From the NCBI GenBank assembly GCA_958296165.1, contig OY282447.1:2232001-2296000 (forward strand): a DNA stretch of 64,000 nucleotides, given 5' to 3'. Positions 3,925 to 20,745 of this stretch are shown in pieces. The DNA is from an uncultured Pseudomonadales bacterium. Lineage in GTDB: Bacteria > Pseudomonadota > Gammaproteobacteria > Pseudomonadales > Azotimanducaceae. Positions within the stretch are counted from its first letter, which is position 1; each line of letters opens with the position of its first letter. Under the pieces are notes generated by a model. It saw nothing but the letters and a program-made list of their open reading frames with translations. It was not told where the DNA came from and ran no database searches. Position numbers and translations under genes: made by a program.

Positions 3925-4529
3925 TCACGCGGCGAGTTTGGCGATGCGGTCGTCCCAGTAGTGGTCGAGCCAGCCGCCGAGCCAGGCGCACCGCAGCCAG
4001 AGCACGGGATTGGCGCCGTCGACGCTCCAGCGCATGCCGGCGCATTTCATGCGTCGGCCGACGACGTTCTTGCAGCCCGCCTCGACGATCCCCGAACCGA
4101 TCGGCAGGCCGGCCGCGTGGTAGGCGTCGCAGCGCATCCGGTCGCGCCGTTCGGCGAGGTAGCCGGCCGCCCTGCGGCATTCCTCGACGTCGCCGCCGCG
4201 CCGCCGCAGGTCGGCCAGCACGTCGTCGAGGCGCCCCGCCTCGAGCATCCCGCACAGCTTCTTCGCCCACGCCGCGGCCAGGTCGCCGCCTGCGTCGTGG
4301 CGGGCGCGCGCCGCCGCCCACAGGTATTCCGCGGCGTGGTAGAAATCGACGATCCTGCGGGCGTCCGGGAACCAGTCGTCGAACAGCCGCCGGATCCATT
4401 CGGCGCCGTCGCCGACGCACGCGTCGACGTCCTGCGGCGCGCAGCCCGCCGCCGCCAGTTCGCGCAGCAGCCGCCGCTCGAACGGCGACTCCTCGCCGGG
4501 CGTCTCCGCCGCGGATCGTGCGGCCATCG
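3925..4529 (-). pseudogene. ISKra4-family transposase, C-terminal remnant
   Basis: The minus-strand frame from about 4529 to the stop at 3925 encodes the catalytic C-terminal part of an ISKra4-type DDE transposase. Recognisable pieces are GDGAEWIRRLFDDWFPDA, RRIVDFYHAAEYLW, GLPIGSGIVEAGCKNVVG and RMKCAGMRWSVDGANPVLWL. The second Asp and the final Glu (in GIVEAGCK) of the DDE triad are present, but the N-terminal half is absent. The 5' end is joined to the truncated SGNH-hydrolase gene at about 4529. The insertion or a later recombination therefore removed both the hydrolase C-terminus and the transposase N-terminus. Confidence 0.85.
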
Positions 4530-5647
4530 CGCGTCTCGCGCGTCTCCGCCTTGGCGTTCGATCCAGGCGTATTGACTGATGACGGGGATGCCGCGCGCCG
4601 CGGCCAGGCCGTGGAGCCGGTCGAAGACGGGATCCCCCGATTTCCCCAGGCTGTGCGTCGTCAGGATCACCAGCGCGGCGCCGTCGCGGTCCGCGCGCGC
4701 CTTGAACAGATCCAGGGCGAATCCCGTGTGCGCCACCGCCTGCTCGAACACCGGGGACAGCACATCCTCCTCGAGCGCCGCCCTGTGGTCCGCTATCGCC
4801 GCCGGCCGCTCGCCGGCCAGCCCTTCGTAGCCGGGGCGCCGGCTCAGGAGTTCGAGCGCCTTTCCCTCTGCGACGTGCGAACGCCGGCGGCCCGGGTCCG
4901 GTCGCAAGGCCAGCCACCTGGCGAACCAGGACCTCTGGGTCGCCCGACGCACGATCCTGTCGAAGAGTGTGGTGGGGGCGGGCCGGATATTCAGTGGCAG
5001 CGGGTGTTTCCAATACTCGGGATCGGGGGGCCGCAGCGTCAGGGCGCCGTCTTCGCCGCGCGCGATGCTCGCCCGGGGCAGCCGGTCCGGGTCGAGGCCG
5101 CGCCGCAACGCCGTCAGGACCGGGGAGTTGTTCCAGAAGTCGTTGTGGAAGAACACCAGCACCAGCAGCTTCGGATGCAGGCGCCGGGCGTAGGTGTCGT
5201 AGAAGGGCAACTGCGCGATCTGGCCCGTATCGAACATCCCGAAGGCGGAGGTGGTGACGTCCAGACGGGGCAGGCGCCGGGCGGCGAGGGCTTCGAGCCG
5301 GACATGCAGCTTGGCGGCGACGGGCACCTGCATCGCGTCCACGAAAGAGTCGCCGATCACGCTGACGTGGCAGCTCGCCGCGGCCCGGTCCGGGGGCAGC
5401 GGCTCGCGGTCGAGGAGCCCCAGCGGTTGGCGCGGGAGGCGGTCCAGAAGTCGCGCAGGTTCGTCCGGCGCACTTCCGCGCCCGGCTCGTGTACCGGACC
5501 CACCCGCGGCTCGAAGCGCATGGGGACGGCGCTGCGCATGAACGGCTTGGTCAGCCGCAACCACGCCTCCCCGCCCGCCGCGATGAGGACCAGCGCGGCG
5601 AGCGCGAGGCCGACGTTCCAGGCGGCCAGGCGCAGGGCGCGTCTCAT
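4530..5647 (-). pseudogene. SGNH/GDSL-type hydrolase, copy 1 (frameshift, truncated C-terminus)
   Basis: The start at 5647 gives MRRALRLAAWNVGLALAALV, a signal anchor. The frame shifts near 5420; the continuation begins GLLDREPLPPDRAAA and then VSVIGDSFVDAMQVPVAAK, with the GDS block-I nucleophile of SGNH hydrolases. HNDFWNNSPV follows, resembling the family's Asn block. The C-terminal D-x-x-H block is missing here because the gene is joined to an ISKra4 remnant at about 4529. The second copy at 9288-10019 still has it. The family includes periplasmic esterases and O-acetyl-modifying enzymes on surface glycans. The gene starts 52 bp after the stop of the sulfotransferase at 5700, so the two were probably co-transcribed. 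Non-functional as read. Confidence 0.7.
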
Positions 5648-5699
5648 CCGTCCCGTCCGGCGGCAGCGTTCGCCCCGTCATCGGCCGGGACGGCCCGGT

Positions 5700-6542
5700 T
5701 CATGGGGCCGCGTCCATGACGGCGTAGCCGAAGTGGGCGAGGACGTCTTCATGCCGGCGGAACACGCGGTTGAACGCGGCGAGGTCCTCGGCGCCCAGAC
5801 GCGCGATCTGCCGCGCGTTCATGTCGGTGAGCATCTCGTGGTACCGCGCCTTCACCCGCAGGCGTTGCCGCAGATCCAAGTCGTCGAGCTCGGGCACCAG
5901 CGCCCGGATGTCCCGCGCCACCCGCTCCGGCTCGGCGCACATCGTCTCGTAGGTGAAGAAGACGCCGCAATGTCCGTGCGCTTCCAGGTTGCGGCGCTGC
6001 CGCGCCATGCAGGTGACGGCGTGCCGCGCCGCGGCTTCCGGCAGGTTCTCGGGCGGCGGTGGCGACGGCCTGCCATAGGGGCGTCCGCCCCGGTGGAACC
6101 GGCAGATCCCCTCGCACACCGCGTACGGATTGCGCACCGTGAACAGGAACTTCGCGTTGTGGAAATGCCGCGCCAATTCGTCCACCAGGAGCAGGTGCGC
6201 CGGGGTCTTGGTGTAGAACACGCACGCATCGGGGTCGCGGGCGATAGCCTGGAAGTACCATGCCTTGCGCGTGCGCGGCCAGTCGTAGTTGCGCGGGTCC
6301 GTCACTAGGTCGATCCAGCGCTGTTCGGCAGCCCAGAGCAGGACCGCGGGATGGGGCCAGAGGATGTTCGGCCCCACGTAGCCGAGCATCATCTGGCCTT
6401 CCCGGTCCAGGTTCCAGGTCGCCCGGCTGGTCGCCAGCGCCGCCTTGAGGAAGGTGGAGCCGCTGTTGTTCGCCGAGATGCCGAACAGGTGGGTGCCGAC
6501 GCGGCTCTCCACATCGTGGCGGCAGCCCAATGCCAAGGCCAT
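5700..6542 (-). CDS. PAPS-dependent sulfotransferase, copy 1
   Basis: The product has 280 residues. Near the N-terminus, GTHLFGISANNSGSTFLKA matches the 5'-phosphosulfate-binding loop of the sulfotransferase superfamily. The 3'-phosphate-binding region is NAKFLFTVRNPYAVCEGICR at about residue 130. A C-terminal helical region ends HFGYAVMDAAP. It is cytosolic by composition. A nearly identical paralogue lies at 7907-8749, an N-terminal fragment of a third at 10020-10309 and a C-terminal fragment of another at 17188-17394. The upstream region also matches that of copy 2, so the unit arose by segmental duplication. The substrate is unknown. The context of asparagine-synthetase-like and HprK-like genes suggests a peptide or natural-product target. 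Confidence 0.8.
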   Translation of the reverse strand: MALALGCRHDVESRVGTHLFGISANNSGSTFLKAALATSRATWNLDREGQMMLGYVGPNILWPHPAVLLWAAEQRWIDLVTDPRNYDWPRTRKAWYFQAIARDPDACVFYTKTPAHLLLVDELARHFHNAKFLFTVRNPYAVCEGICRFHRGGRPYGRPSPPPPENLPEAAARHAVTCMARQRRNLEAHGHCGVFFTYETMCAEPERVARDIRALVPELDDLDLRQRLRVKARYHEMLTDMNARQIARLGAEDLAAFNRVFRRHEDVLAHFGYAVMDAAP

Positions 6543-6612
6543 CGCTAATCCGAACCGGGGGTTCTGCCCGGCGACCGGGGCGCTTGTGACGTTCGTGAGT
6601 GAGCGGGGAAGG

Positions 6613-6909: not shown

Positions 6910-7839
6910 TCAGGCGAACGTCCATCCCGCCTGCCCCAGAACGCCGGTGCGCAGGTGCGCCTGCGCCAGCACGTCGAGCCAAGCGTCGTACCAGAACCTG
7001 AAGGCGGCCGCGGCGGGCACGCTCCCCGGGTCCCACGCCCAGCGCAGCATGGCGCCCGGCAACCAGGGTTTGACCGCCTTGACGTAGTGCAGCACCCGCG
7101 CGCTTTCGACGTCCACGCCCTCCCGCGCCCGAATGTCCCGCGCCGAGGCCAGCAGGAAGTTGTACGTCGAGCTGATCAGCGTCTGCCGTCCGGCGAAGTA
7201 CCGGTTTTGCAGGAATTGCTTGGTATGCGTCGTGTCGGTGTTGCGCCAGGTTTCCGGCGTCAGCATCGCCAGCAGATCGGCGTAGGTGCCATCGTTCACC
7301 AGCGCGGCGTCGATGACTAGGAACCCGTCGTTGAACGTCCGCTCCAGGACGCCGCCGGCGCCGGCCCGGCCGCCCGGCGGCGCGGGCAGAAAGGTGAGGG
7401 CATCCCGGTGGCGGCCCTCCAGATACGCCTTGTCGCCACAGCACAGCAGGGCTTGCGGGGAATCGAACAGCGAATCCACCGGGGCTCGAAACAGCAGGTC
7501 GCTGTCGCAGAACAGCACCTTGCGGTAACCGCCGAGCCGGAATGCTTCAAGCGCAAAGAAGCGCGCCGGCGTGAAGCCGCGTTGCGGCAGCGCGGCATGC
7601 ACGTGCTCGGCCCGGTCCACCAGCTCCGGCGAGACCGGGTGGAAGCGCACGCCGTCGAAGGCGGCCGCGAGCACCTCGCGCAGGGACTCCGGCAGGCCAT
7701 CGTCATGGACGACCACGATGTCGCCCGCGAACCCGGGATGGTGCCGCAGGAAGGAGCCGATCAGGACGAGCGTGCCCGGCATGAAACGTTCCGTTGTGGC
7801 CGTGGCCAGGCAGACCTTCGGCGGTTCCCGCGACCTCAC
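6910..7839 (-). CDS. GT8-like nucleotide-sugar glycosyltransferase
   Basis: A GTG start at 7839 preceded by GGAG-type sequence gives about 309 residues; a longer frame reaches back into the sulfotransferase but has no convincing start. The protein begins with a strand-loop PKVCLATATTERFMPGTLVL. The metal-binding D-x-D is in KVLFCDSDLLFRAPVD. Later come TFNDGFLVIDAALVN and a late His in HYVKAVKPWL. This order is characteristic of glycogenin/GT8-type retaining transferases of GT-A fold that use UDP-sugars. It lies 68 bp downstream of sulfotransferase copy 2 and probably shares its transcript. Glycosylation of the same product as the sulfotransferase is possible but inferred only from adjacency. 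Confidence 0.78.
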   Translation of the reverse strand: MRSREPPKVCLATATTERFMPGTLVLIGSFLRHHPGFAGDIVVVHDDGLPESLREVLAAAFDGVRFHPVSPELVDRAEHVHAALPQRGFTPARFFALEAFRLGGYRKVLFCDSDLLFRAPVDSLFDSPQALLCCGDKAYLEGRHRDALTFLPAPPGGRAGAGGVLERTFNDGFLVIDAALVNDGTYADLLAMLTPETWRNTDTTHTKQFLQNRYFAGRQTLISSTYNFLLASARDIRAREGVDVESARVLHYVKAVKPWLPGAMLRWAWDPGSVPAAAAFRFWYDAWLDVLAQAHLRTGVLGQAGWTFA

Positions 7840-7906
7840 GCGCCGCTCCGGTGGCCGGGGCCGGCAGACGGCCGGCCCGTCGGGCGAACGTCCATCCCGC
7901 CCGGCC

Positions 7907-8749
7907 TCATGCGGCCGCGTCCATGAGGGCGTAGCCGAAGTGGGCGAGGACGTCTTCATGCCGCCGGAACACGCGGTTGAACGCGGCGAGGTCCTCGGCG
8001 CCCAGACGCGCGATCTGCCGCGCGTTCATGTCGGTGAGCATCTCGTGGTACCGCGCCTTCACCCGCAGGCGTTGCCGCAGATCCAAGTCGTCGAGCTCGG
8101 GCACCAGCGCCCGGATGTCCCGCGCCACCCGCTCCGGCTCGGCACACATCGCCTCGTAGGTGAAGAAGACGCCGCGATGCCCGTGGGCCTCCAGGTTGCG
8201 GCGCTGCCACGCCATGCAGGTGACGGCGTGCCGCGCCGCGAGTTCCGGCAGGTTCTCGGACGGCGGTGGCGACGGCCTGCCGTAGGTGCGCCCGTCCCGG
8301 TGGAACCGGCAGATGCCCTCGCACACCGCGTACGGGTTGCGCACCATGAACAGGAATTTCGCGTTGTGGAAATGCCGCGCCAACTCGTCCACCAGGAGCA
8401 GGTGCGCCGGAGTCTTGGTGTAGAACACGCACGCACCGGGGTCGCGGGCGAAAGCCTGGAAGTACCATGCCTTGCGCGTGCGCGGCCAGTCGTAGTTGCG
8501 CGGGTCCGTCACCAGGTCGATCCAGCGCTGTTCGGAAGCCCAGAGCCGGTTCGCGAGACGGGGCAAGAGGATGTTCGGCCCCACGTAGCCGAGCATCCCC
8601 TGGCCTTCCCAATCTAGGTTCCAGGTCGCCCGGCTGGTCGCCAGCGCCGCCTTGAGGAAGGTGGAGCCGCTGTTGTTCGCCGAGATGCCGAACAGGTGGG
8701 TGCCGACGCGGCTCTCCACATCGTGGCGGCAGCCCAATGCCAAGGCCAT
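7907..8749 (-). CDS. PAPS-dependent sulfotransferase, copy 2
   Basis: This is a near-identical paralogue of the gene at 5700-6542, also 280 residues from the equivalent ATG. The 5'-phosphosulfate loop is ISANNSGSTFLKAAL and the 3'-phosphate site is KFLFMVRNPYAVCEG. Differences from copy 1 are scattered conservative substitutions plus one replaced patch (PRLANRLWASEQ against PHPAVLLWAAEQ). The reading frame is intact, so both copies may be active. The frame remains open upstream to 8989, but the homologous start and the ribosome-binding context favour 8749. The upstream sequence carries the same small coiled-coil gene remnant as copy 1. Confidence 0.8.
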   Translation of the reverse strand: MALALGCRHDVESRVGTHLFGISANNSGSTFLKAALATSRATWNLDWEGQGMLGYVGPNILLPRLANRLWASEQRWIDLVTDPRNYDWPRTRKAWYFQAFARDPGACVFYTKTPAHLLLVDELARHFHNAKFLFMVRNPYAVCEGICRFHRDGRTYGRPSPPPSENLPELAARHAVTCMAWQRRNLEAHGHRGVFFTYEAMCAEPERVARDIRALVPELDDLDLRQRLRVKARYHEMLTDMNARQIARLGAEDLAAFNRVFRRHEDVLAHFGYALMDAAA

Positions 8750-9037: not shown

Positions 9038-9232
9038 CTAGCTGCGGGGCGCATATCTTGATCTTTGGCCGGGGTTGGAAAGGGCGTCTTCATCGGCACC
9101 TGGGTCTGACCCTACACGTGTGCTGGTGACCCTCAGCTGGCGGATGGTGGGCTTTGCCCAAGGGCGTTTCGGGGCCGAGGACGCTACGGCCTCGTTCGCC
9201 TTGCTCTGGGCGAAGCCGGGCGTATCGATCAT
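9038..9232 (-). CDS. Candidate RiPP (lasso-like) precursor peptide
   Basis: This 64-residue ORF starts at ATG 9232 behind a good GAGGTG ribosome-binding site with 6-nt spacing. The N-terminal part is leader-like (MIDTPGFAQSKANEAVASS), followed by APKRPWAKPTIRQL, and then a Gly/Asp/Glu/Ser-rich tail containing GSDPGADEDALSNPG. The APKRPWAKPTIR block matches APKKPWARPTIR in the plus-strand frame at 12821-13034. Nothing else in the two proteins is alike, which is the expected pattern for precursors with a conserved leader and variable core. An aromatic-x-x-P-x-[IL] block resembles the recognition motif of lasso leaders, with W in place of Y. The Thr usually found at -2 of the core is not cleanly placed. 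The surrounding genes include an asparagine-synthetase-like cyclase. The function is inferred. Confidence 0.5.
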   Translation of the reverse strand: MIDTPGFAQSKANEAVASSAPKRPWAKPTIRQLRVTSTRVGSDPGADEDALSNPGQRSRYAPRS

Positions 9233-9287
9233 GTCTTCACCTCTGGTGGATTAAGTCTAGGGACTCCCGCTTAGCGGGGGGAACATA

Positions 9288-10019
9288 CTATAAAGTCCCG
9301 TGACAGACCACCTGATTCTGTGCCAGATGTTCGAGCAGGGCTTCCGCCGCCCACTGGTGGCCGGCCGGGCTCCAGTGCGTCTCGCGCGTCTCCGCCCTGG
9401 CGTTCGATCCAGGCGTATTGACTGATGAGGGGGATGGCGCGAGCCTCGGCCAGGTTGTGGAGCCGGTCGAAGACGGGGTCCCCCCGTTTCCCCAAGCTGT
9501 GCGTCGTCAGGAGCACCAGCGCGGCGCCGTCGCGGTCCGTGCGCGCCTTGAACAGGTCCAGGGCGAATCCCGTGTGCGCCACCGCCTGCTCGAACACCGG
9601 GGACAGCACATCCTCCTTTGAGCGCCGCCCGGTGGTCCACAATCGCCGCCGGCCGCTCGCCGGCCAGCCCTTCGCAGCCGGTCCGGGTCGAGGCCGCGCC
9701 GCAACGCCGTCAGGACCGAGGAGTTGTTCCAGAAGTCGTTGTGGGAAGAACACCAGCACCAGCAGCTTCGGATGCAGGCGCCGGGCGTAGGTGTCGTAGA
9801 ACGGCAACTGCGCGATCTGGCCCGTATCGAACATCCCGAAGGCGGAGGTGGTGACGTCCAGACGGGGCAGGCGCCGGGCGGCGAGGGCTTCGAGCCGGAC
9901 ATGCACCTTGGCGGCGACGGGCACCTGCATCGTGTCCACGAAAGAGTCGCCGATCACGCTAACGTGGCAGCTCACCGCGGCCCGGTCCGGGGGCAGCGGC
10001 TCGTGGTCGAGGAGCCCTG
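9288..10019 (-). pseudogene. SGNH/GDSL-type hydrolase, copy 2 (5' truncated, internal deletion, frameshifts)
   Basis: The sequence from GLLDHEPLPPDRAAVSCHVS onwards matches copy 1, including VSVIGDSFVDTMQVPVAAK with the catalytic Ser. Around 9660-9740 an internal block of roughly 180 bp present in copy 1 is missing and the frame shifts. A further shift near 9400 leads into HWSPAGHQWAAEALLEHLAQ, which supplies the catalytic His block absent from copy 1, and the stop lies at 9288-9290. The 5' end is fused to a sulfotransferase fragment at about 10020. It is clearly non-functional, but it reveals the intact C-terminus of the family. Confidence 0.7.
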
Positions 10020-10309
10020 CGGATGCGCGGCCAGTCGTAGGCGCCGGCATCGGTCAGGACGTCCAGCCAACGCTGCTCGGCCGCCCAGACCTTCACCGCG
10101 CCGCGCAGCGGGCTGTCCACCCTCGTCGGCCCGGCGAAACCATGTACAAGGCGGCTCTCGTCCGGCAGGCTCCACGCCTGCCGGCAGGCCGCGAGCGCCA
10201 GGCTCAGGAAGGTGGAGCCGCTGTTGTTCGGCGAGACGATGAACAGATGCGTTTCGATCGTGCGCTCCATGCGCTCAGGACCCTGGCGGGCGCCGTAGAG
10301 CAGGCCCAT
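10020..10309 (-). pseudogene. Sulfotransferase, copy 3, N-terminal fragment fused to SGNH copy 2
   Basis: The ATG at 10309 lies 4 bp after the stop of the asparagine-synthetase-like gene. The N-terminal sequence includes ETHLFIVSPNNSGSTFLSLA (5'-phosphosulfate loop) and AAEQRWLDVLTDAGAYDWP, which is paralogous to AAEQRWIDLVTDPRNYDWP of copy 1. After about 95 codons the sequence jumps at about 10020 into the middle of the SGNH hydrolase. This is a recombination junction inside two coding regions. The 3'-phosphate-binding half is lost. Confidence 0.7.
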
Positions 10310-10313
10310 GTGG

Positions 10314-12191
10314 TCAGAGCTCGCCGAGGATGGCCAGGGCATGGCCGCGCAACCTTTCCTCTCTCGTCGATGCAACCCTGCCGGCGCGCAGGCTGGCCAG
10401 CAGGCGGGGCATGTCGACGTATTGCGTGCGGGTGGACGACGCGGCCCCCGCCTCCAGGGCCCGGAGGAGCGCGGGCAGCACTTCCTCCTCGTAAACGTTG
10501 TCGTACGGGTCGAAGATCAGGTGGGCGTCGGCCTTGGCCAGACGCCAACAGATGTCGGGCGGCAGTAGCGACTGCCCGGCATGGCGCATCAGCCAGCGGC
10601 TCCACTTGCCGCGCCGGAACTGTTCGGACGGCAAGCCCAGGGCGAACTCCAGCAGCCGCCGGTCCAGCAGCGGGTAGCGGTACTCGATGCCGTGGCGCGC
10701 GCCGCTCGCCGCGAGGAGTTCCGTGTCCCGAATCAGATGCCCGTCGCGCAGCAGACGCAACTGCGTGCGCCTCGTGCCGACCCCGCGGCGGTGCGGCACA
10801 GGCCGCGGGGGCTGCCGCCGGGCGAACGCCGGGTCGATGAACGTGTTCGGAAAAGATCGTGGGTTGCGCCACCTCCGCAGCCGGCGGGGCATCGGGGGTA
10901 TCAGGGACCTCACCGTCTCCCCGATCACGTACCGCAGCCCCAGCCCGCGGGCGCGGCATTCGGCGGCCAACCGCGGCCAGCGCCCGCTGAGCAGCAGGTG
11001 CGCGTAGAGCCCCCTGCCGTTGAACGACACGCCCTCGTCCCCGCCCCATCCCGTCAGCAGCACCCTTACGCCATGCTCCGCGGCCTGGCGCTGGACGGAC
11101 GCCTCCAACAACGAGAGCCGCCGGCCCGGATACACGCCGTCGCGCCGCGACATGGCGAGCAATTCTTCGGGGGTGACCTCGAACTGGTGGAACAGGCGCA
11201 GCTCCTCCCGGGCGCACACCGCGTCGAGGACCTCGTACTCCGGCGCGCCGGCCGCGGCCGGCTGGCGGTCGCGCGGCGGCAGCCAGGTGTAGGCGAGCGG
11301 CGGCGGCCGGCCCTCGCGGCGCAGCTCGCGCGCCGCCAGCACCACCATCGTGGACGAATCCAGGCCGCCGCTCAGGTGTACGCCCACGGGGTCGGGGCCG
11401 CGCAGGCGGTCGCGCACCGCCCGTGTGTAGAGGTCCAGGAACTCCTCCGCATACGCGTCGTCGGAGGCCCGCCGCGCCCGCGGGGCCCGCTCCGGCCGCC
11501 AGTATCGGTGCAGCCGCGGCGGCGCGGTCCCGGCCACGGTCAGCGCATGGCCGGGCGGAAGCTTGCGCACCATCGCGAAGAACGTCCGGGTGTTGCTCAG
11601 CGGGTTGCGCCGGACCAGCGAGGTGGCCACGGTGGACTCGTCGAGCCGGTCATCGACGCCGGGCGCGGCGAGCACCGCCTCCACGGCGCTGGCGAAGACG
11701 AAGCCATGCGGGGTTTCGGCGTAGTAGAAGGGCCGGACGCCGATGGGGTCGCGGGCGCAGAACAGGGTGCCGGCGCGCCGGTCCCACACCGCGAAGGCGT
11801 AATCGCCGAGCAGGTGGTCTGGGCAGTCCTGGCCCCAGCGCGCCCAGGCCCGTGCGATCAGGTCCGGGTCGTCGAGGCCGGCGCGTTCGGTGCGGGGCAC
11901 GCCGAGCGCGTCGCAGAGTGCGCCGCGCTCGTCAAGGCGGGCGTCCGCGGCGACCGCGAAGCCGGTGCCCCGGTCGATGCGGAGGCGGGTCCCGGACCGG
12001 CGTTGCCCGGTGGCGGGGGACCCTCCGGCGTCGCGGGACCGCCGGCCGCCGAGGGCGACGGGAGGCTCCGTCCACGCCGCGGCCTCCGCCCCGTAGTCGG
12101 CGAGGGCCGCCAACATGGCGTGCAGCCCTTCCGCGGCCGATCCGTCCGTGGTGCCGGCCCGGCTTGCGTGGATCCCGCAGATTCCGTTCAT
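10314..12191 (-). CDS. Asparagine-synthetase-like protein (candidate lasso-type macrolactam synthetase)
   Basis: I choose the ATG at 12191, giving 625 residues. The N-terminus MNGICGIHASRAG keeps a Cys at position 5 where class II glutamine amidotransferases normally have Cys2. A glutaminase-like domain follows to about residue 230 (DYAFAVWDRRAGTLFCARDP). The C-terminal synthetase domain has the pyrophosphate loop HLSGGLDSSTMVVLAA at about residue 290 and LLTGWGGDEGVSFNG. In primary metabolism such enzymes make Asn. In lasso-peptide clusters homologues adenylate an Asp/Glu side chain and close the macrolactam. The neighbours (sulfotransferases, HprK-like kinases, nucleotidyltransferase remnant, precursor-like ORFs) favour the second role. 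A second, truncated homologue is at 13999-15128. The sulfotransferase fragment starts 4 bp after the stop, which is operon-like. Confidence 0.75.
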   Translation of the reverse strand: MNGICGIHASRAGTTDGSAAEGLHAMLAALADYGAEAAAWTEPPVALGGRRSRDAGGSPATGQRRSGTRLRIDRGTGFAVAADARLDERGALCDALGVPRTERAGLDDPDLIARAWARWGQDCPDHLLGDYAFAVWDRRAGTLFCARDPIGVRPFYYAETPHGFVFASAVEAVLAAPGVDDRLDESTVATSLVRRNPLSNTRTFFAMVRKLPPGHALTVAGTAPPRLHRYWRPERAPRARRASDDAYAEEFLDLYTRAVRDRLRGPDPVGVHLSGGLDSSTMVVLAARELRREGRPPPLAYTWLPPRDRQPAAAGAPEYEVLDAVCAREELRLFHQFEVTPEELLAMSRRDGVYPGRRLSLLEASVQRQAAEHGVRVLLTGWGGDEGVSFNGRGLYAHLLLSGRWPRLAAECRARGLGLRYVIGETVRSLIPPMPRRLRRWRNPRSFPNTFIDPAFARRQPPRPVPHRRGVGTRRTQLRLLRDGHLIRDTELLAASGARHGIEYRYPLLDRRLLEFALGLPSEQFRRGKWSRWLMRHAGQSLLPPDICWRLAKADAHLIFDPYDNVYEEEVLPALLRALEAGAASSTRTQYVDMPRLLASLRAGRVASTREERLRGHALAILGEL

Positions 12192-12820: not shown

Positions 12821-13034
12821 ATGGCCGAGAGTACACCCCCGTGTAGCCGATGCGCCGAAGAAGCCCTGGGCCAGGCCGACCATCCGAATAGTGGACGGCG
12901 AAGTTGAAAGTGGCGCACAGATCAATACGATTGAAACCGCCTTCTACTACCTACTACACAACGTCCTGACGCCGGCCGTGACCCTTGAAGGCGTAGCCGC
13001 GGCCCCCGAGGGCGCGGGAGCGACTCTCGCGTGA
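12821..13034 (+). pseudogene. Candidate RiPP precursor peptide, one-base frameshift in a C run
   Basis: ATG 12821 follows a GAGGAGA site. As read, the frame stops after 28 codons. Removing one C from the CCCCC run at 12836-12840 gives a 70-residue peptide that starts MAESTPRVADAPKKPWARPT, continues IRIVDGEVESGAQINTIE and stops at 13032-13034. Its TGA overlaps the GTG start of the HprK-like gene (13031), as expected for coupled genes. APKKPWARPTIR matches the minus-strand ORF at 9038-9232. If the core begins at the Gly of SGAQINTIE, a Glu falls at position 8, the usual spacing of a lasso macrolactam. The 40-residue remainder would be unusually long, and the -2 Thr is absent. The frameshift could be a sequencing error, a decay event or phase variation. 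Confidence 0.5.
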
Positions 13035-13981
13035 GCCGCTCGCTCCACCGCTACACGGCCTACGGGCTGCGGGTGCAATCGCCCATCGCGCTGCCCTTCG
13101 TCCCCGCTTCCAGCGCCCCGCACCACGAGCCGGACGTCACCATCCACGTCGGCGCGGCGCCCCTGGCCCTGCCCGCGCCGGTGGACAAGCGCGGGCATTG
13201 GCAAAGCGCGCCCGGCGCGTTCCTGCTCAACGTGGATGGGGTGGCCCGGTATTTGGTCAGGGCAGGCCGCAACATCCTGGTTGAGCCGCGCGGCGGCGGC
13301 GACGGCGACGTGGGCGTGTTCCTCGCCGGCTCGGTGTTCGCCGCGCTGCTGCAGCAGCGCGGCGTCGTCACCTTGCACGCCAGCGCCATCGAGACCCCGG
13401 CCGGCGCCGTGCTGTTCCTCGGCCGCTCCGGCGATGGCAAGTCTTCGCTGCTCGCGGCGATGGTGCAGCGGGGGCACGCCATGCTCGCCGACGACGTCAC
13501 CGGCGTGATTCTGGACTCCGGCGGACGTCCGACGGCGTTGTCCGCGTTTCCCTGCGCGCGCCTGTGGGCGGACGCCTTGGACGAATTGGGCTGGCAGGCC
13601 CCAACGCGGGGCCGCGTGCAGAAAGGCTTGGAGAAGTACTTGGCGCCAGTGGGGCGGTTCCGCGCCACCCCCTTGGCTGTGTGCGCCGCCTACATGCTGA
13701 CGCCTTCCCCCGGGAGCGGCATCGAGATCGAACCATGCACGCGCCACGCGACCTTCGAGCGCCTGTTGAAATACACCTACCGCAGGCGATACCTGTCCGG
13801 GCTCGGCCAGCGCCCGGCGCACTTTCGCGCCGTCGCGGCAATGGCGGGGCAGGTGCCGGCCTTCAGGGTGAAGCGGCCCGAGCACCCGTTGCAGATCAAT
13901 GCGCTGGCGGACGAAATCGAGCGGTCTCTGTGCGAGCGCGGCGCCGAGACCGTCTCCCCTGCGGCCGGCGCTTCCGGGTGA
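13031..13981 (+). CDS. HprK-like serine/peptide kinase, copy 1
   Basis: The 316-residue protein starts with GTG at 13031, overlapping the preceding frame by 4 nt. After an N-terminal domain beginning MSRSLHRYTAYGLRVQSPIA, the kinase core includes VTLHASAIE and then the Walker A loop LFLGRSGDGKSSLLAAMV at about residue 140. MLADDVTGVILDSGG follows and resembles the Asp-containing catalytic segment of HPr kinase. True HPr kinase/phosphorylase acts on the PTS protein HPr. Homologues with this domain layout in lasso-peptide clusters phosphorylate the precursor peptide. No PTS gene is nearby, so the second role is more likely. A closely related domain is fused to a sulfotransferase at 18486-20540. 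Confidence 0.78.
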   Translation: MSRSLHRYTAYGLRVQSPIALPFVPASSAPHHEPDVTIHVGAAPLALPAPVDKRGHWQSAPGAFLLNVDGVARYLVRAGRNILVEPRGGGDGDVGVFLAGSVFAALLQQRGVVTLHASAIETPAGAVLFLGRSGDGKSSLLAAMVQRGHAMLADDVTGVILDSGGRPTALSAFPCARLWADALDELGWQAPTRGRVQKGLEKYLAPVGRFRATPLAVCAAYMLTPSPGSGIEIEPCTRHATFERLLKYTYRRRYLSGLGQRPAHFRAVAAMAGQVPAFRVKRPEHPLQINALADEIERSLCERGAETVSPAAGASG

Positions 13982-13998
13982 CGCTAAGGGAGGGGTCC

Positions 13999-15128
13999 GT
14001 GTCGATCTTCTGGCTCGCCTCCTACCCGAAGTCCGGCAACACCTGGCTGCGGGCGGTGCTGACCAACTACTTGTACGCCGCCAGCCGCGGCGGGGCGCCC
14101 AAGGCGGAGCATGCGCCGGAGTACGCCCTTGTTGACGCCGTGGCCCGGCGGGAGGAACTGCGCATCCACCACTGCGCACCGAGTCCCGACGACATGCTCG
14201 CCATGCTGCGCCGCGACGGGGCCTTGCCGGGCGTGCAGGTCCACCTCAACGAGGAGGCGGTGCAGCGCCGCGCCGAGGAGCTGGGCGCACGCACGCTGCT
14301 GTCGGGTTGGGGCGGGGACGAGGGCGTGTCGTTCAACGGCTTTCGGGGCTATCCCGAGCAACTGCTGCTCACCGGGCGCTGGCTCAGGTTGCTCGCCGAT
14401 GTGCGCTCGCGCAGGGATGGTCCGCTCATGCATATGGCCCAAGTTGTGCTGCTGCTGGCGCGTCCGCACCTGCATCGGGCCGTCAGCCGATGGTGGCGGG
14501 GCAAGCAGCCGGACCGTCGGCGCTGGCTCATCGCCCCCGCGTTCCGGCGGGAGGTGAAGCCCTTGCGCCTGGGGACTTTTCGAGAGGTCGGTGCGCGGCG
14601 CACGCAGTTGCGGCTGCTGCGCGGTGGGCATTTGAGCAAGCGCCTGGAGGGCTGGGCGAGCGGCGCCGCCCGGGGCATCGAGTACCGCTATCCGCTGCTG
14701 GACCGCCGGCTGCTGGAGTGGTATTCGCCAAGCGCCAATAGGCGTCGCCGTGATCGTGCTTCGTCCTGGGGCTGCCACCCGAGCAGTTCCGGCACGGCAA
14801 GTGGGGCCGCACGCTGATGCGCCGCACGTTCGACCCAGTGCTCCCCCCTGAAGTCTGCTGGAATCAGGTCAAAACCGACCCGGCCCGGGTGGAGGCCCTG
14901 ACCGACGCCTTCGCCGAAGCGCTGCCGACGGCGCGGCGCGAGATCGCTGCCTGCGCCGCGACGCCCCGGGGCCGATACATCGACATGTCGCGCTTGCTTG
15001 AACGCTTGGACAAGGATCGATTTCGAGCGGACCCGCAGCTTGCGCCCGTTCTCAACGCCCTGCAGTTCCTGGACTTCCAGGTTCAGCCGGAAGGCTGCGG
15101 CGGCTACTCCGGCGGCGAACCAGTTTGA
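13999..15128 (+). pseudogene. Chimera: sulfotransferase N-terminus joined in frame to an asparagine-synthetase C-terminus, then frameshifted
   Basis: GTG 13999 follows AAGGGAGGGG, 17 bp after the kinase stop. The first 28 codons read VSIFWLASYPKSGNTWLRAV, the phosphosulfate loop of a sulfotransferase and nearly identical to the start at 18486. At about 14090 the frame passes without interruption into the middle of an asparagine-synthetase-like protein (APEYALVDAVARREELRIHH, then LLSGWGGDEGVSFNG). Its PPi-loop lies in the deleted part. Near 14730, after LLDRRLLEW, about 40 bp of extra sequence breaks the frame. FVLGLPPEQFRHGKWGRTLM resumes in another frame and runs to the stop at 15126-15128. 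The gene has suffered an in-frame deletion that fused two neighbours, and then an insertion. Confidence 0.75.
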
Positions 15129-15799
15129 TCCTCAAGAGGACGCAGACGCTGCCGCAACGTCTCCCGATAGTCGGCGCCCCCAGCGTAGAACCACCCCCCG
15201 TACACGCACCTTGGCGCCGTTCCCTCCACCGGAAGCGCCCGGTGCTCAAGCGTCTTGTGAATCCGAAACAGGCAAGCGTCGCCGAATCGACCCGTCGCCA
15301 CCGTTTGAAAAACCTCCTTGGTCCTCCTGCTTCGAATTTGAAAGCCGCCGCCGCTGAAGGGCTTGGAGGACAGGTTAATGGTCAGCCCGTACAGCTTCCC
15401 ATACATGGCGTCGTCGTGCCAGCTATCAAAGTGCCCGCAGTGCCCGCCGCCCGGAAGGATCTTGAAGCAGCGGCCGTTGAAGCGTTGAATGGCCTCTTCA
15501 GAACCGGTGAACTCGGCAATCGCCTCGAACAGACGGGGCTGGTTGAGCAGCAGGAGAAACATTGTCAGCAGCGGCCCCGCGCGCATTGCGAGTTCCCTAG
15601 CGAACACCTCGCCTTTCTTGTCAGTGTCTTCGCGGGTGTCGAATTGGCCGGCCTCCAGCATCCGGGGGACGCGCCCCAGAATACCGTCATCCACAAAACC
15701 CTTGAACACGACGCAATGGCGGTGCGCGAACTCCCGCTGCTGCGCAGCCCACCGGTCGTCCTTGACGATGCGCGGGCCGCCGGTCCTGAGCTGAATCAT
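15104..15799 (-). CDS. 2-oxoglutarate/Fe(II)-dependent oxygenase
   Basis: The start at 15799 (MIQLRTGGPRIVKDD) gives 231 residues. The iron-binding H-x-D sits in HCGHFDSWHDDAMYGKLYGL at about residue 120. It is followed by TINLSSKPFSGGGFQIR and a second conserved His in FRIHKTLEHRALPVEG, whose spacing fits the distal His and the 2OG-binding Arg region. This is a small cytosolic dioxygenase, probably hydroxylating a peptide or a natural product. It converges with the preceding chimeric gene, overlapping it by 25 bp. It lies inside the sulfotransferase/kinase cluster, so a tailoring role on the same product is plausible but inferred. Confidence 0.7.
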   Translation of the reverse strand: MIQLRTGGPRIVKDDRWAAQQREFAHRHCVVFKGFVDDGILGRVPRMLEAGQFDTREDTDKKGEVFARELAMRAGPLLTMFLLLLNQPRLFEAIAEFTGSEEAIQRFNGRCFKILPGGGHCGHFDSWHDDAMYGKLYGLTINLSSKPFSGGGFQIRSRRTKEVFQTVATGRFGDACLFRIHKTLEHRALPVEGTAPRCVYGGWFYAGGADYRETLRQRLRPLEDQTGSPPE

Positions 15800-15839
15800 G
15801 CCGCCTTCAGCAGAGCGCCGCCACCATGAAGCCGATGTC

Positions 15840-16330
15840 GCCGGGCCGCCGTCTACGGCGATCCTCCTCATCCACGATGGTCAGGGTAGCCGGTCTGGAA
15901 CAGCAGCGCCTCGACGGACATCTCATCGACGTCGAAGGCCGACAACAGCGCCTCCGTGCCAACCATGCCCCTCCAGGTCCGGAGTGGGGATGCCGCGCCG
16001 CAGCACGGTGTCGATCACGAACTTCGGCGAGCCGGTCTCGAACCAGTGCGCCTTGAACTTGCGCTGCCGGAACAGCAGCAGGATGTCGAAGGGTGTCAAT
16101 AACAAGGGGTTGTACACCTTAGGCTTTGCCAAGCCAGCTATAGCCGTTGTACCAGCGGCGCACCTCGCCGCGGTCCAAGCCGGGAAGCTGCGGCTTGAAC
16201 ACGGCGACAGATCGCCCTCCGTGTAGCCGCAAATGGCGGAGTAGCACGGGTCCGAAGTGATGTTGGTGAGATTGTCCAAGCCGGAGCGCTGCACTGCCGA
16301 CGCTTGGCGGCGCTGTTGTCGGGGACGCTC
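15840..16330 (-). pseudogene. AAA-ATPase-like/PD-(D/E)XK protein (PF09820/PF08011 type), multiply frameshifted remnant
   Basis: Reading the minus strand with frame changes recovers the family signature in order: LDNLTNITSDPCYSAICGYT, then VFKPQLPGLDRGEVRRWYNG, YSWLGK, KVYNPLLLTPF, then AHWFETGSPKFVIDTVLRRG, and finally SVEALLFQTGYLTIVDEED. At least three shifts are needed. The family consists of large proteins of unknown function common in Bacteroidetes and symbiont genomes, often multicopy. Only a central portion is left here, lodged between two 2OG-oxygenase genes. Confidence 0.6.
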
Positions 16331-16439: not shown

Positions 16440-16673
16440 ATGCAGCATGAGATCCTCCCTCCCGAGAAACGGATGACCGGTCTTGGGGAGTGCCGCGTCG
16501 AGCCGCAAGACAACAGCATCGTCCTGTTCCCCAGCCGCTGCGTCCACGAGGTTACGCTGCTGGAGCGCGACCCCACCGACTTCGGCGCCGGACACGTCCG
16601 CGGCAGGGTGCTGTTGGGCCACGCGCAAACGCCTCGGAGCGCCCGCCTCATTGAGGGGATGCAAAATGTCTGA
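16440..16673 (+). pseudogene. 2OG-Fe(II) oxygenase, C-terminal remnant
   Basis: The frame contains EPQDNSIVLFPSRCVHEVTL followed by a Gly/Arg-rich strand (GAGHVRGRVLLGHAQTP). This is the second half of the jelly-roll of prolyl-hydroxylase-like 2OG oxygenases, with the distal iron His in C-V-H-E-V and the 2OG-binding Arg. The iron H-x-D part is missing. The stop overlaps the ATG of the next gene by a few bases, so the two were once translationally coupled. Confidence 0.55.
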
Positions 16674-17165
16674 GCTTGCAGGGTCAACCGCCATAGCGCG
16701 CGCGCTCATCAGCCCGGACCTGCTGAACCAGGCCGAAGCAGCACTCCAGCGCAAACTGGCCGAGAATCCGCACGACGCACGGGCCCTGCGCGGGCTTGGC
16801 GACTTGCGGCGCCGGCGGGATGAATTCGGCGCGGCGCTGAAAACCTATCGTGTACTACAGCACCTGCGATGCGATGCGATGACGAACTGGCTGGTCGCTG
16901 TGGCAAGCGGCGAGCGGTTGCCATGGCCTGCGCCCGAGGGCGTTCAGCCCTCGCCGTTCATCCGCATAAAGAAACTTCCTCAACGCGGCGCAGCAGGAGC
17001 GCCTCCTCACGATGACGTGCGCTGACCCCAAGACATCTATTCCAGCCAGTATTTACTCCGATAAAAAACGGCAGTGGCGCCGTGAGCGGCGCAACGCGCT
17101 GCATGCGGACAGGTCGGTCATTCGGGAGATTCGTCGTTGGTTCGTCCCGAAGCTGCGGTGCCCGG
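16666..17165 (+). pseudogene. TPR-containing 2OG oxygenase, N-terminal remnant (frameshifted)
   Basis: ATG 16666 follows GAGGGG and overlaps the end of the preceding remnant. The first 70 residues hold one tetratricopeptide-type helical pair (NQAEAALQRKLAENPHDARA through EFGAALKTYRVLQHL). The next segment, PSPFIRIK, continues after a one-base shift near 16978 as FLNAAQQERLLTMTCADPKT and SIPASIYSDKKRQWRRERRN, resembling the N-terminal entry of 2OG oxygenases. The sequence then passes into an unrelated sulfotransferase tail at about 17166. The catalytic part is absent. Confidence 0.45.
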
Positions 17166-17187
17166 CCGCGCCTCGCTGCGCCCGATG

Positions 17188-17394
17188 GGCGCGGCGGAGA
17201 AAATCCGTGCATTGATTCCGGCGCTCGACGACCTGAACCTGCGCCGCCGCCTTGCCGTCAAGGAATATGACGCAGTGCTGACCGACATGAACGCGCAGCA
17301 TATCGACCGCCTTGACGCCGCCCAGGTCGCCGCGTTCAACCGCGTGTTCTCCACCCGGCGGGAAGACCTAGGCTACTTCGGCTACAGCCTCATG
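17188..17394 (+). pseudogene. Sulfotransferase C-terminal remnant (plus strand)
   Basis: The segment AEKIRALIPALDDLNLRRRL and VLTDMNAQHIDRLDAAQVAA through EDLGYFGYSLM is clearly paralogous to the last 70 residues of the sulfotransferases at 5700 and 7907. It lacks both PAPS-binding sites. It is the fourth separate trace of this gene family in the window. Confidence 0.65.
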
Positions 17395-17441
17395 GGGCAG
17401 GCGGCCGAGGCACCCCGCCGAGCACAGCGGCAGCGGCGTCC

Positions 17442-17763: not shown

Positions 17764-17824
17764 CTCGGGCGGTGGGCTGGCGCCGGACCATCAGAGTGAC
17801 CATGACTCGCAGTGGTAGGCGATC

Positions 17825-18466
17825 GTGTCGGTAGCGTCAAAGTCAATCACCTACGGGACCGCTCCGGCGCTGCCACGGGTCGAGAAGCCGGCCCTGGTGC
17901 GCTGTCTCGGTCCCGTGGACGTCGAAGCGCTGCGGGGGCGGGTCGGGCGGCTGTCGGAGAAGGTGTGGCGGCAGGAAGACGCCGCAAAGGAGAACGACTA
18001 CTTCTGCTTCGCCCACACCCAACACATCGTGTTCCGGTTCATCGAACGCAACTGGACGCCGCTGCGCTACTACTCGACGCCGATATGGACGGTCTGGCAG
18101 CGGCTGCTGCTGCCGGTGATGGCGCAGGCAGCGGCACCTTGTGGCTACGCCCAGCCGGTCTACCCCAAGGCGATGCTGGCTAGGCTTGCGGCCGGGCACG
18201 GGATCGACCAGCACATAGACGGCGAGGGCTCGCACCCGTTGACGCATCGCATCCACGTGCCGTTGCAGACCAATCCGCGGGCGACGCTGACGGTGGCGGA
18301 CGCCGAGTTCCATCTGGAGGCCGGCTACGCCTTCGAGGTCAACAACCTTCTGCCGCACAGTGCGTTCAACGGCGGCGAGGAGGATCGGATCCACTTCGTC
18401 TTCGAGGTGTTCGAGGGCGCCGGCCACCGGAGAGGCCCGGAGTCCGCTGCGAGCAGCGGCTTCTGA
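17825..18466 (+). CDS. Aspartyl/asparaginyl beta-hydroxylase-like 2OG oxygenase
   Basis: The protein has 213 residues from GTG 17825. The jelly-roll carries the iron ligands in IDQHIDGEGSHPLTHRIHVP (H-x-D) and in EVNNLLPHSAFNGGEEDRIH (distal His and a substrate/2OG Arg). The H-R-I-H-V-P-L and V-N-N...H...N patterns are typical of the aspartyl/asparaginyl beta-hydroxylase family, which hydroxylates Asp or Asn side chains or free amino acids. The gene ends 19 bp before the sulfotransferase-kinase fusion and is co-directional with it, so it probably belongs to the same operon and may tailor the same peptide. Confidence 0.75.
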   Translation: MSVASKSITYGTAPALPRVEKPALVRCLGPVDVEALRGRVGRLSEKVWRQEDAAKENDYFCFAHTQHIVFRFIERNWTPLRYYSTPIWTVWQRLLLPVMAQAAAPCGYAQPVYPKAMLARLAAGHGIDQHIDGEGSHPLTHRIHVPLQTNPRATLTVADAEFHLEAGYAFEVNNLLPHSAFNGGEEDRIHFVFEVFEGAGHRRGPESAASSGF

Positions 18467-18485
18467 AGCCGAGGGAGCGCACGCG

Positions 18486-20540
18486 GTGTCCATCGTCTGG
18501 CTCGCCTCCTATCCGAAGTCCGGCAATACTTGGCTGCGGGCGGTGCTCACCAACTACTTGCGAGACGACGGCGAGCCGGTCTCGATCAACGCCTTGGCCG
18601 GCGGGCTCCTAGCCAGCGACCGCGAGACGTTCAGCGAAATCGTCGGGCTGGATTCCTCGGACCTGACCCCGGAGGAAATCTTGCGCCACCGGCCGCTATT
18701 CCACGAGTCGCTGGCCCGGGAGCTGGCCGGGCGCCCGGCCGGGGCAGGCAGGCGCCCGGTGCAATCGGCGCCGGCCTTGGTCAAGGTCCATGACGCATAC
18801 CTCCACGCCCGGGATGGCGCGGCGCTGTTCCCGAAAGTCGCGACGAGCGGGGTGGTCTACCTAGTCCGTAATCCCCTGGACGTTGCGGTGTCCTACGCGC
18901 ACCATCGGCAGAAGTCCATCGACGCCACGGTGCGGTGGATGAACGAGCCGGCGGCAGCCGAAGGGGAGGTGGTCGGCGGCATTCACGTCCAGTTGCCGCA
19001 ACCACTCACGACGTGGAGCGGCCACGCGGCGAGCTGGCTGGACCAGGAGGAGTTGCCGGTACATGTCGCGCGCTACGAGGACCTGCTCGCGGACCCAATG
19101 GCCGCGTTCGGCGCGATCGTGCGCTTCGCCGGCCTCGACCGGGACGGGACACACCCCGAAGGACCCGGGCAACCGAGCGCATCCGCGCGCCTCGCGCGGG
19201 CCATCGGCCATGCCGCCTTCTCCCGCCTGCGGGCCCAGGAGGAAGACTCCGGTTTCTCGGAAAAGCAGCCGACGGCGCCGTCGTTCTTCCGGGCCGGGGT
19301 GGCGGGGTCGTGGCGGACCGCGCTGGCCCTCTCGCAGGTGCAAGCATTGGTGGATGCGCACGGGCCGATGATGGCGCGGCTCGGCTACCTGCGCGAAGCC
19401 GAGGCTTTTCTCACCGACGACGCTCTCGGCCCCCCCGACCGCCAAGTGGCACCGGCCCAAGGGGGCCCCCGCTGCACGCGGCGCCGCCGGACTGTCTTGC
19501 GCCGGAACACTCGGAAAGAGCCCAGCGGGTGCGACGGCGAATCCCGCATGAGCCGCTCGCTACGCGATTACCGGGCGTACGGGCTGTGGGTGCGCTCACC
19601 CATTCCCTTGCCGTTCGTGCCAGCTCCCCTGCCGCCAGCCTGTGAGCCGGAGGTGACAGTTCGCGTCGGCGCGACGGCGAAGGCGCTCCCGGCGCCAGCA
19701 GACGAACGCGACCTGTGGGAAGCCGCCCCCGGCGCCTTCCTGATGAATGTGCCCGGCGTAGTCCGATGCCTGGTCACCGGCGGCCGCGACATCCTCGTCG
19801 AGCCGCATGGCGATAGCGACCACGACGTGAGCATCTTTCTCACCGGCTTGATGTTCTCCGCACTGTTGCAGCAGCGGGGCGTGACCACCTTTCATGCCAG
19901 CGCCATCGAGACGGATTCGGGCGCCGTGCTGTTTGCGGGCTGTTCGGGCAGCGGCAAGTCGTCGCTGCTCGCGGCGCTCGTCGAGCGCGGCTACCCGATG
20001 CTGGCCGACGACGTGGCGGGGGTGGTGCTGGACGCAGGTGGCCATCCGATGGTGCTGTCCGCCTTTCCCCAAATGCGCCTGTGGGCGGACGTGCTGGACA
20101 AGCTGGGTTGGCGGAACCGGGCGCGGGGGGAGGTTCGGGAGGCGCTGGAGAAATATCTGGTGCCGGTGGAGCGGTTTCGGGCCGAGCCGCTGGCGGTGCG
20201 TGCCGTCTGCGTGCTGACGTCCCATCAACGAGAGGATGTCGAGATCGAGACCGTATCGCGGGCCGACGCTTTCCGGTGGTTGCACATGTACACGTACCAC
20301 AAGCAGCGCCTGCACGGGCTGGGGCAGCAGCCGGCGCACTTCCGCACCGTCACCGCGATGGTGAGGCGGGTGCCGACCGCGCGCGTGGCGAGGCCCGCAT
20401 ATCCGCTCCGCCTCGACGCGCTGGCGGACCGGGTCGAGGAGCACTTGCGGGAGATGAACCGGCAGGGTGCAGCGAGCGGGCAGCGGCCCGTTGCAGGGAC
20501 GAGCCCGGAACAGGGCATGCGTCCACTCGCCGACGCATAG
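18486..20540 (+). CDS. Sulfotransferase-HprK-like kinase fusion protein
   Basis: One uninterrupted frame of 684 codons starts at GTG 18486. Residues 1-315 form a sulfotransferase: the 5'-phosphosulfate loop is SIVWLASYPKSGNTWLRAVL, and the 3'-phosphate region is GVVYLVRNPLDVAVSYAHHR. After a basic linker (TRRRRTVLRRNTRKEPSG) an ATG at 19548 begins MSRSLRDYRAYGLWVRSPIP, the start of an HprK-like kinase nearly collinear with that at 13031. Its Walker A is FAGCSGSGKSSLLAALVERG, followed by MLADDVAGVVLDAGG. At 13.0-14.0 kb the same two functions are separate genes in the opposite order. The linker composition suggests a lost stop codon joined two adjacent genes; translation may also restart at 19548. 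A designed bifunctional enzyme is the alternative. Confidence 0.75.
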   Translation: MSIVWLASYPKSGNTWLRAVLTNYLRDDGEPVSINALAGGLLASDRETFSEIVGLDSSDLTPEEILRHRPLFHESLARELAGRPAGAGRRPVQSAPALVKVHDAYLHARDGAALFPKVATSGVVYLVRNPLDVAVSYAHHRQKSIDATVRWMNEPAAAEGEVVGGIHVQLPQPLTTWSGHAASWLDQEELPVHVARYEDLLADPMAAFGAIVRFAGLDRDGTHPEGPGQPSASARLARAIGHAAFSRLRAQEEDSGFSEKQPTAPSFFRAGVAGSWRTALALSQVQALVDAHGPMMARLGYLREAEAFLTDDALGPPDRQVAPAQGGPRCTRRRRTVLRRNTRKEPSGCDGESRMSRSLRDYRAYGLWVRSPIPLPFVPAPLPPACEPEVTVRVGATAKALPAPADERDLWEAAPGAFLMNVPGVVRCLVTGGRDILVEPHGDSDHDVSIFLTGLMFSALLQQRGVTTFHASAIETDSGAVLFAGCSGSGKSSLLAALVERGYPMLADDVAGVVLDAGGHPMVLSAFPQMRLWADVLDKLGWRNRARGEVREALEKYLVPVERFRAEPLAVRAVCVLTSHQREDVEIETVSRADAFRWLHMYTYHKQRLHGLGQQPAHFRTVTAMVRRVPTARVARPAYPLRLDALADRVEEHLREMNRQGAASGQRPVAGTSPEQGMRPLADA

Positions 20541-20643
20541 AGTATCACGCGGGAAAGCGCGTTTTGCCCGGCCGGCAGCGGCGGTGCTACCGCGCTTCAG
20601 GATCGTGGCCCGGCCTGCCGCGAGACAGGAACGTGGCGTGCGC

Positions 20644-20745
20644 GGGACATCGACCTGCTGGTTTCGTCGCGAACGTTTCAGGCCGCCGAGCGGGTACTGC
20701 TGGAAAACGGCTGGTCGCGGGTCGAGCCGAGTTTCCCTGAGACAC
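20644..20745 (+). pseudogene. Nucleotidyltransferase remnant (NTP_transf_5-like)
   Basis: The frame reads ARDIDLLVSSRTFQAAERVL and LENGWSRVEPSFPE. This is the catalytic D-I-D-L-L-V metal-binding strand and following helix of the nucleotidyltransferases that accompany HprK-like kinases and sulfotransferases in lasso-type clusters. Sequence on both sides does not continue the family. It lies about 100 bp after the fusion gene and is the decayed end of the same operon. Confidence 0.5.

Follow-up and report, generated by a model that had tools for sequence, protein, structure and literature searches.

A probable lasso-peptide hub with kinase, sulfotransferase, hydroxylase and glycosyltransferase genes in an uncultured Pseudomonadales bacterium

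Results

The stretch of DNA analysed here (the window, 64,000 nucleotides, C1:2232001-2296000 of a single-contig genome of 5.07 Mb from an uncultured Pseudomonadales bacterium) carries a putative lasso-peptide gene cluster, which an earlier note, written from the letters of the DNA, had described as a strongly rearranged lasso-like locus for a ribosomally synthesised and post-translationally modified peptide (RiPP). The gene families named there were matched at their places by profile and tblastn searches. The central gene is a predicted lasso cyclase of 625 aa (10314..12191, minus strand), assigned by profiles and a tree, with an SGGLDS loop; given the ATG at 12191, it starts with MNGICGI, so that position 2 is Asn and the catalytic Cys2 is absent, as in lasso cyclases. 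The open reading frame (ORF) that holds it (10314-12323) matches GATase_7 and Asn_synthase with E 2.5e-33. A second asparagine-synthetase-like gene, also claimed before, is truncated (Asn_synthase, ORF 13564-14817, plus strand, E 1.9e-5) and belongs to a chimera (13999..15020, plus strand; homology and tree), in which the first 25 codons of a sulfotransferase (13999-14073) run into a shortened, frameshifted cyclase.

Around the cyclase, all six claimed traces of 3'-phosphoadenosine 5'-phosphosulfate (PAPS) sulfotransferases were recovered: Sulfotransfer_3 copy a (5700..6542, minus strand, E 2.2e-13), copy b (7907..8749, minus strand; profile and homology), which is 93% identical to copy a, a Sulfotransfer_1 gene (18486..19547, or to about 19500, plus strand; profile), the piece in the chimera, and fragments recognised by homology at 10031..10309 (minus strand) and 17065..17403 (plus strand, C-terminal). 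The same holds for a GT8 glycosyltransferase (6910..7959, minus strand, E 1e-14), a nucleotidyltransferase scrap of 37 aa (20640..20750, plus strand; homology, 89% to the gene left of the window described below) and several 2-oxoglutarate (2OG) hydroxylases, i.e., an aspartyl/asparaginyl beta-hydroxylase-like protein (AspH; Asp_Arg_Hydrox, 17825..18466, plus strand, E 2.8e-10), a 2OG-Fe(II) oxygenase (2OG-FeII_Oxy, 15104..15871, minus strand, E 6.8e-7) and fragments of tetratricopeptide-repeat (TPR)-2OG hydroxylases at 12373..12447 (plus strand, 25 aa, homology) and 16440..17025 (plus strand, weak matches).

Two HprK-like kinases had also been claimed, and both places carry P-loop, HAS and ADD motifs, which we take to be the signature of such kinases: kinase 1 at 13031..13981 (GRSGDGKS, HASA, ADDV) and kinase 2 at about 19548..20540, both on the plus strand. 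Their profile scores, in contrast, are all below the cut-offs (Pfam Hpr_kinase_C 21-26 bits vs. 33.3, TIGR04352 33-35 bits vs. 200), so it is E-values of 1e-8 to 1e-4, together with these motifs, that support the label "kinase". The Sulfotransfer_1 gene has no stop before kinase 2, and the two share an unbroken frame (18360-20540) which is also present in a second genome, G117 (L037 2232-4469); this could be a fusion, and possibly a bifunctional phospho/sulfo enzyme.

In a local search, a profile from five seed peptides (precursor 2, discussed below, among them) matched the non-seed ORF 9038-9250 (minus strand) with E 6.9e-7. It holds lasso precursor 1 (9038..9232, minus strand, 64 aa), whose ATG is preceded by GAGGTG, with leader ...APKRPWAKPTIRQLRVTSTR and core (V)GSDPGADEDALSNPGQRSRYAPRS. 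Counted from Gly, Asp/Glu stand at positions 7-9, as expected of the ring acceptor of a lasso precursor, with the core start ambiguous, and the C-terminal Ser beside predicted kinases would match a paeninodin-type cluster. In an alignment of fifteen rows, Trp and Lys of the leader are invariant, as is a Tyr close to the end. Since the core had been part of the search that found these rows, the profile was rebuilt from 18 leader residues alone (three rounds), and it retrieved 51 ORFs with a tail of 12-60 aa, giving 48 distinct tails. Ser is at the end of 39 of the 48, Tyr is 4-7 places from the end in 45, and both features are present in 38, compared with 0.5% of 12,270 background ORFs; for the 33 tails that do not stem from the 15 rows, the corresponding numbers are 28, 30 and 27. 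In the wider set, where the core was included in the selection, a terminal Ser is present in 67 of 78 tails, and the spacing from acceptor to Tyr equals 4 in 42 of 71. Mostly, the tails end in Tyr-x3-Ser, with the leader motif W-x-K-P. The part of PMC10368454 available describes a penultimate leader residue Ile where Thr is usual, with the leader still removed, and the T/V/I seen before the core here would fit this if the core begins one residue ahead of Gly. Side by side in one relative, G118 (L080 8393-10188), one precursor is present in three copies with identical tails, alternating with TPR-2OG hydroxylase pieces.

The earlier note had not seen a RiPP recognition element (RRE) or a transglutaminase-like protease; they do lie outside the window, but they are not missing, being 5.8-8.6 kb to its left. 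In a genome-wide search, Transglut_core3 was above cut-off at C1:2223437-2223697 (E 5.7e-23; 8.3-8.6 kb left of the window) and C1:2626885-2627175 (E 4.1e-22), with five more, weak places (E 0.005-0.35), and PqqD (RRE) at C1:2225988-2226167 (E 1.7e-18; 5.8-6.0 kb left) and C1:2625543-2625746 (E 2.4e-15). The Cys and His of a transglutaminase-like Cys protease are present in all nine proteases compared. With the exporter, these genes stand 5.8-10 kb left of the window, where the order (L018) is: a leucine-rich-repeat (LRR)/O-antigen-ligase-like protein, a nucleotidyltransferase-protease fusion (594 aa), an ATP-binding cassette (ABC) exporter, the RRE, a TPR-2OG hydroxylase, a second GT8, a rhamnosyltransferase-like gene, an insertion sequence (IS) element, and an arylsulfotransferase (ASST) with a putative cluster role, which crosses the left edge of the window (1..662, minus strand; in L018 the complete gene matches PF05935 with E 9.3e-24).

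The second Transglut_core3 and PqqD places belong to a second lasso locus of the same genome (L019), with the order kinase, sulfotransferase, nucleotidyltransferase fragment, kinase, sulfotransferase, TPR-2OG hydroxylase, precursor-like ORF, cyclase, RRE, exporter remnant and protease fusion. Its precursor-like ORF ends in RKPWTPPRLETNGASDIDAGTAASHQDGVTSYMP, and similar ORFs in G119 and G120 have SHQDGVTSYMP in common.

Seven other genomes (G117-G123), eight with the window genome, show the cyclase in linkage with the same tailoring genes and not scattered, as it would be if the grouping in the earlier note were fortuitous. The valS proteins of the window genome and these seven are 55-73% identical, with 48-60% identity at third codon positions (G120-G122, at 55-58%, are probably of another family), whereas the copies of the hub cyclase are 89-96% identical as proteins and 91-96% at third positions, which indicates recent horizontal transfer; for the cyclase of the second locus, third-position identity in G119 and G120 is 96-98%. 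The precursor family is present at E 1e-6 in at least five of 206 family genomes, all single-contig assemblies (best 34 candidates per genome), and G015, of the same genus, gave no precursor, protease or RRE match. A full-length protease fusion was found in three of 117 relatives (G000, which is the window genome itself, G013 and G053), and any match in eight. Ten of the eleven named cyclase loci are metagenome-assembled genomes labelled "uncultured Pseudomonadales" or "Gammaproteobacteria" (accessions OY282353-OY282519); the eleventh, from Phycicoccus, is 29% identical. Two plasmid searches returned 5 and 6 records, every one below 60% identity. A PDB search returned asparagine synthetases and relatives only.

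Whole-genome counts gave one protease in each of G117-G123 and two in the window genome, with 2-5 RREs per genome (two short partial matches taken in). Cyclases number 2 in the window genome and 4, 11, 5, 5, 13, 6 and 7 in G117 to G123, and precursor ORFs, counted in 66 fetched regions only and including precursor 2 and a few truncated ORFs, 2 and then 7, 23, 5, 5, 22, 7 and 17. Of the 53 cyclases, 11 are within 20 kb of a protease, and 69 of the 88 precursors are within 10 kb of a cyclase. The 53 are a hand-made list of places with at least 225 bits plus a divergent second type. It leaves out G118:3855135 (225 bits, no lasso neighbours found), short partial places, those of about 149-161 bits (G000:1584028, which groups with AsnB, G119:1757841, G120:2650401, G120:1502534 and G122:1745951) and G120:3088735 (155 bits, 2 kb from an RRE), perhaps a further cyclase, and it keeps the doubtful G119:3404361 (487 aa, probably broken), L083 and L103. 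The last two belong to one clade and lack SGGxDS; the precursors that go with them have long cores containing Cys and HEDE(F/Y)Y. Elsewhere, in the 13-15 kb fetched for L118, L090, L092 and L095, precursor-GT8-sulfotransferase cassettes stand without a cyclase. When the 66 regions were searched with a local protease profile, the nine hub proteases were recovered and nothing further below E 0.08, and within the phylum at least 45 of 398 genomes have the protease, three at most (best 11 candidates per genome). The G118 protease is unfused and has no cyclase nearer than 20 kb. Protease and nucleotidyltransferase share one frame in five of the seven relatives and are split over separate frames in G122.

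Other features of the window are a PMT_2-type membrane glycosyltransferase (2172..3800, minus strand, PF13231 E 3e-11), with a 99% identical copy beside the hub of G117 (L037), a transposase remnant, presumably ISKra4-like (3925..4690, minus strand, PF06782 E 0.027, weak), running into the frame of an SGNH/GDSL-like hydrolase or acyltransferase with a disturbed 3' end (4692..5681, minus strand, PF13472 E 0.018, weak; with orthologues), and a second, broken SGNH gene (9541..10029, minus strand, homology). Transposase genes flank the hub (window 1350-1982 and L018 16476-17334; DUF4372/DDE by profile), and we take both to be IS1595-like. One protein of odd, eukaryote-like architecture stands beside each lasso locus of this genome (L018 2731-8742 and L019 12863-18958; 2003 and 2031 aa), with roughly 1500 residues of leucine-rich repeats before the C-terminal half of an O-antigen ligase (Wzy_C).

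Discussion

Because of the protease and RRE to the left, the match of the cyclase to a lasso model and its place in the tree, the precursor family, the linkage in seven genomes and the ratios of nonsynonymous to synonymous substitution rates (dN/dS), the window very probably holds that half of a lasso-peptide hub which carries cyclase, precursor and tailoring genes, the other half lying directly to its left. The lasso-like product type proposed earlier is supported accordingly by profile matches for RRE, protease and cyclase. Several points weigh against this reading. The cyclase matches the NCBIfam lasso cyclase model NF033535 with E 1.1e-95 and 321.6 bits, under the curated cut-off of 525, which every cyclase place in the nine genomes searched misses (it is passed by a match in at least six of 398 genomes of the phylum, best two candidates per genome). 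The tree, of 60 rows, is weak at its deep forks, and its sole outside lasso cyclase (Priestia) joins the AsnB pair at 92/43. If the conserved Gly is counted as residue 1, ring sizes assigned automatically are 8-11 in 57 tails, the ring position being ambiguous; known lasso rings range over 7-9. AlphaFold models, built from 7 rows for kinase 1 and from 2 for the protease fusion, have a mean predicted local distance difference test (pLDDT) score of 44 and 33, respectively, too poor for use. Several enzyme copies in the window are broken, and of the two precursor-like ORFs claimed earlier one is intact and precursor 2 (12821..13034, plus strand), overlapping the start of kinase 1, has its start, leader and C-terminal end in three frames and is more disturbed in L037; it gives no support for function.

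The breakage bears on the first alternative, that the lasso genes are real and the product is no longer made in the window genome. DNA comparison showed that 12347-14014 and 17777-20508 are adjacent in G117, meaning that in the window kinase 1 and AspH are separated by about 3.76 kb; this segment carries remains of another lasso cassette and, by this comparison, explains a large part of the strong rearrangement. In favour of such a relic are the IS remnants, the broken state of precursor 2, the chimeric cyclase, doubled and truncated genes, and the low number of family precursor ORFs in this genome, the fewest of eight genomes (two of 88, one broken). On the other hand, the reading frame is open in the cyclase, the two kinases, precursor 1, the GT8, the sulfotransferases, the protease fusion, the exporter and the RRE, and for most window enzymes comparison with near copies gives a dN/dS of 0.23-0.55: 0.40-0.47 for the cyclase (four genomes), 0.23-0.26 for the kinases and the Sulfotransfer_1 gene (vs. 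G117) and 0.38-0.55 for the GT8 and Sulfotransfer_3 genes, with 0.67 for one 47-aa sulfotransferase match, 0.67 on nine differences for AspH (0.53 on a 61-aa piece) and 0.54-0.84 for precursor 1; outside the window, the values are 0.40-0.72 (protease fusion) and 0.40-0.42 (exporter). For the kinases, G121 and G123 offer paralogues of 48-55% identity (0.45-0.66), which were excluded from the near copies. The window enzymes are mostly under purifying selection, and we regard the relic as unlikely.

A further possibility is that the asparagine-synthetase homologue makes a non-threaded macrolactam. The missed cut-off would agree with this, and threading is unreadable from sequence, but RRE, Transglut_core3 protease, cyclase and ABC protein together make up the lasso set, which is annotated in this form on a Priestia plasmid, and the window cyclase scores 321.6 bits with NF033535 vs. 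86.2 with the albusnodin/ikarugamycin model (TIGR01536 174.3 bits), so a non-lasso RiPP seems improbable. That it is an unlinked housekeeping AsnB with chance neighbours is a negligible prospect: both copies match Pfam Asn_synthase, but the N-terminal Cys nucleophile is absent, the linkage is kept in eight genomes, and in the tree the E. coli AsnB pairs with the genome's own AsnB-like protein (100/100), apart from the nine rows of window and G117-G123 cyclases (100/100), for which separation AsnB identity was rejected. In this tree, where 17 of 57 inner branches are drawn open and long branches carry a flag, the hub cyclases stand apart from AsnB but take no place within the characterised lasso cyclases; the truncated copy (14068-15020), itself on a long branch, joins cyclases from G118 (L080) and from G121 (L100) at 100/100 and so derives from another type of cassette.

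Returning to the lasso hub, one protease beside 4-13 cyclases and 5-23 precursor ORFs per genome suggests a hub that serves cassettes in trans. We lean, by a small degree, towards an arrangement in which, in the seven relatives, one leader protease and 2-5 RREs serve 4-13 paralogous cyclases and 5-23 hypervariable precursors in scattered cassettes, often precursor-GT8-sulfotransferase, with a common leader motif and mostly a Glu-x3-Tyr-x3-Ser core end. Hub and cassettes would pass between distantly related, probably co-living bacteria as an interchangeable arsenal, and the window would represent one such hub copy. Only four of the seven relatives have their protease within 20 kb of the cyclase of the hub, and the window genome, with two of each, is itself without the many-cyclase layout; other, unrelated proteases possibly serve the scattered cassettes. 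The recent transfer between distant bacteria points to a common chemical arsenal, and by analogy with the part of PMC9426513 on sponges, the host may be a sponge. The papers listed for the accession range of these contigs are Wellcome genome notes, their subjects being insects, plants and one fish.

From the gene content we infer the following pathway as the most likely one. The RRE would bind the leader (KRPWAKPTIR), the kinases may phosphorylate the C-terminal Ser of the linear precursor, the sulfotransferases would also act on it, most likely at the conserved Tyr, and the hydroxylases on Asp/Asn in the DED ring segment. The transglutaminase-like Cys protease would then cut off the leader, and the cyclase would activate the ring Glu/Asp and close the macrolactam on the N-terminus of the core round the tail, after which nucleotidyltransferase and GT8 may add sugars and the ABC protein export the product, whose function is probably warfare or signalling within the microbial community. 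If the hub does serve scattered cassettes in trans, one protease for about a dozen cyclases and twenty or so precursors would represent one promiscuous step with many products, as prochlorosins do for lanthipeptides; a leader tag would be accepted by many cyclases, and tails both phosphorylated and sulfated would be predicted. Lasso clusters are normally read as self-contained units, and a hub with spokes would explain productive orphan precursors.

In kinase-bearing lasso clusters, RRE and protease are separate, as they are in the hub. Like the hub, the paeninodin and S. yanoikuyae SyanK clusters have, in the portion of PMC8498205 available, an HPr-kinase homologue and precursors ending in Ser, and HPr kinases phosphorylate this Ser in linear precursors; unlike them, the hub has several sulfotransferases, GT8s, Asp- and TPR-2OG hydroxylases, a nucleotidyltransferase-protease fusion, and relatives with dispersed cyclases. 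The pseudomycoidin cluster shares the kinase and nucleotidyltransferase, the latter, according to the same portion, glycosylating the phosphate and being fused to the protease (B2) in several clusters, with fusions published for Firmicutes; the hub, in contrast to that cluster, which is from Bacillus pseudomycoides, is proteobacterial and has sulfotransferases, GT8 and hydroxylases. Canucin A is alike in the 2OG-dependent hydroxylation of a lasso precursor (CanE beta-hydroxylates Asp), and Asp hydroxylation is therefore not the unusual addition that the earlier note had supposed; it differs in its Streptomyces origin, and that portion of PMC8498205 mentions no sulfo/phospho genes for it. Also similar by description are the sponge "highly modified lassopeptide" families, with hydrolases, oxidoreductases, sulfo-, glyco- and nucleotidyltransferases beside lasso genes; section 9 of PMC9426513, to which the likeness is by description only, gives no precursors, one-protease layout or transfer analysis. 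In a limited library searched with limited terms, no title or abstract beginning described one lasso protease for many dispersed cyclases. As far as these partial sources go, the kind of cluster is already known ("highly modified lassopeptide", PMC9426513), and the one-protease layout is its new element.

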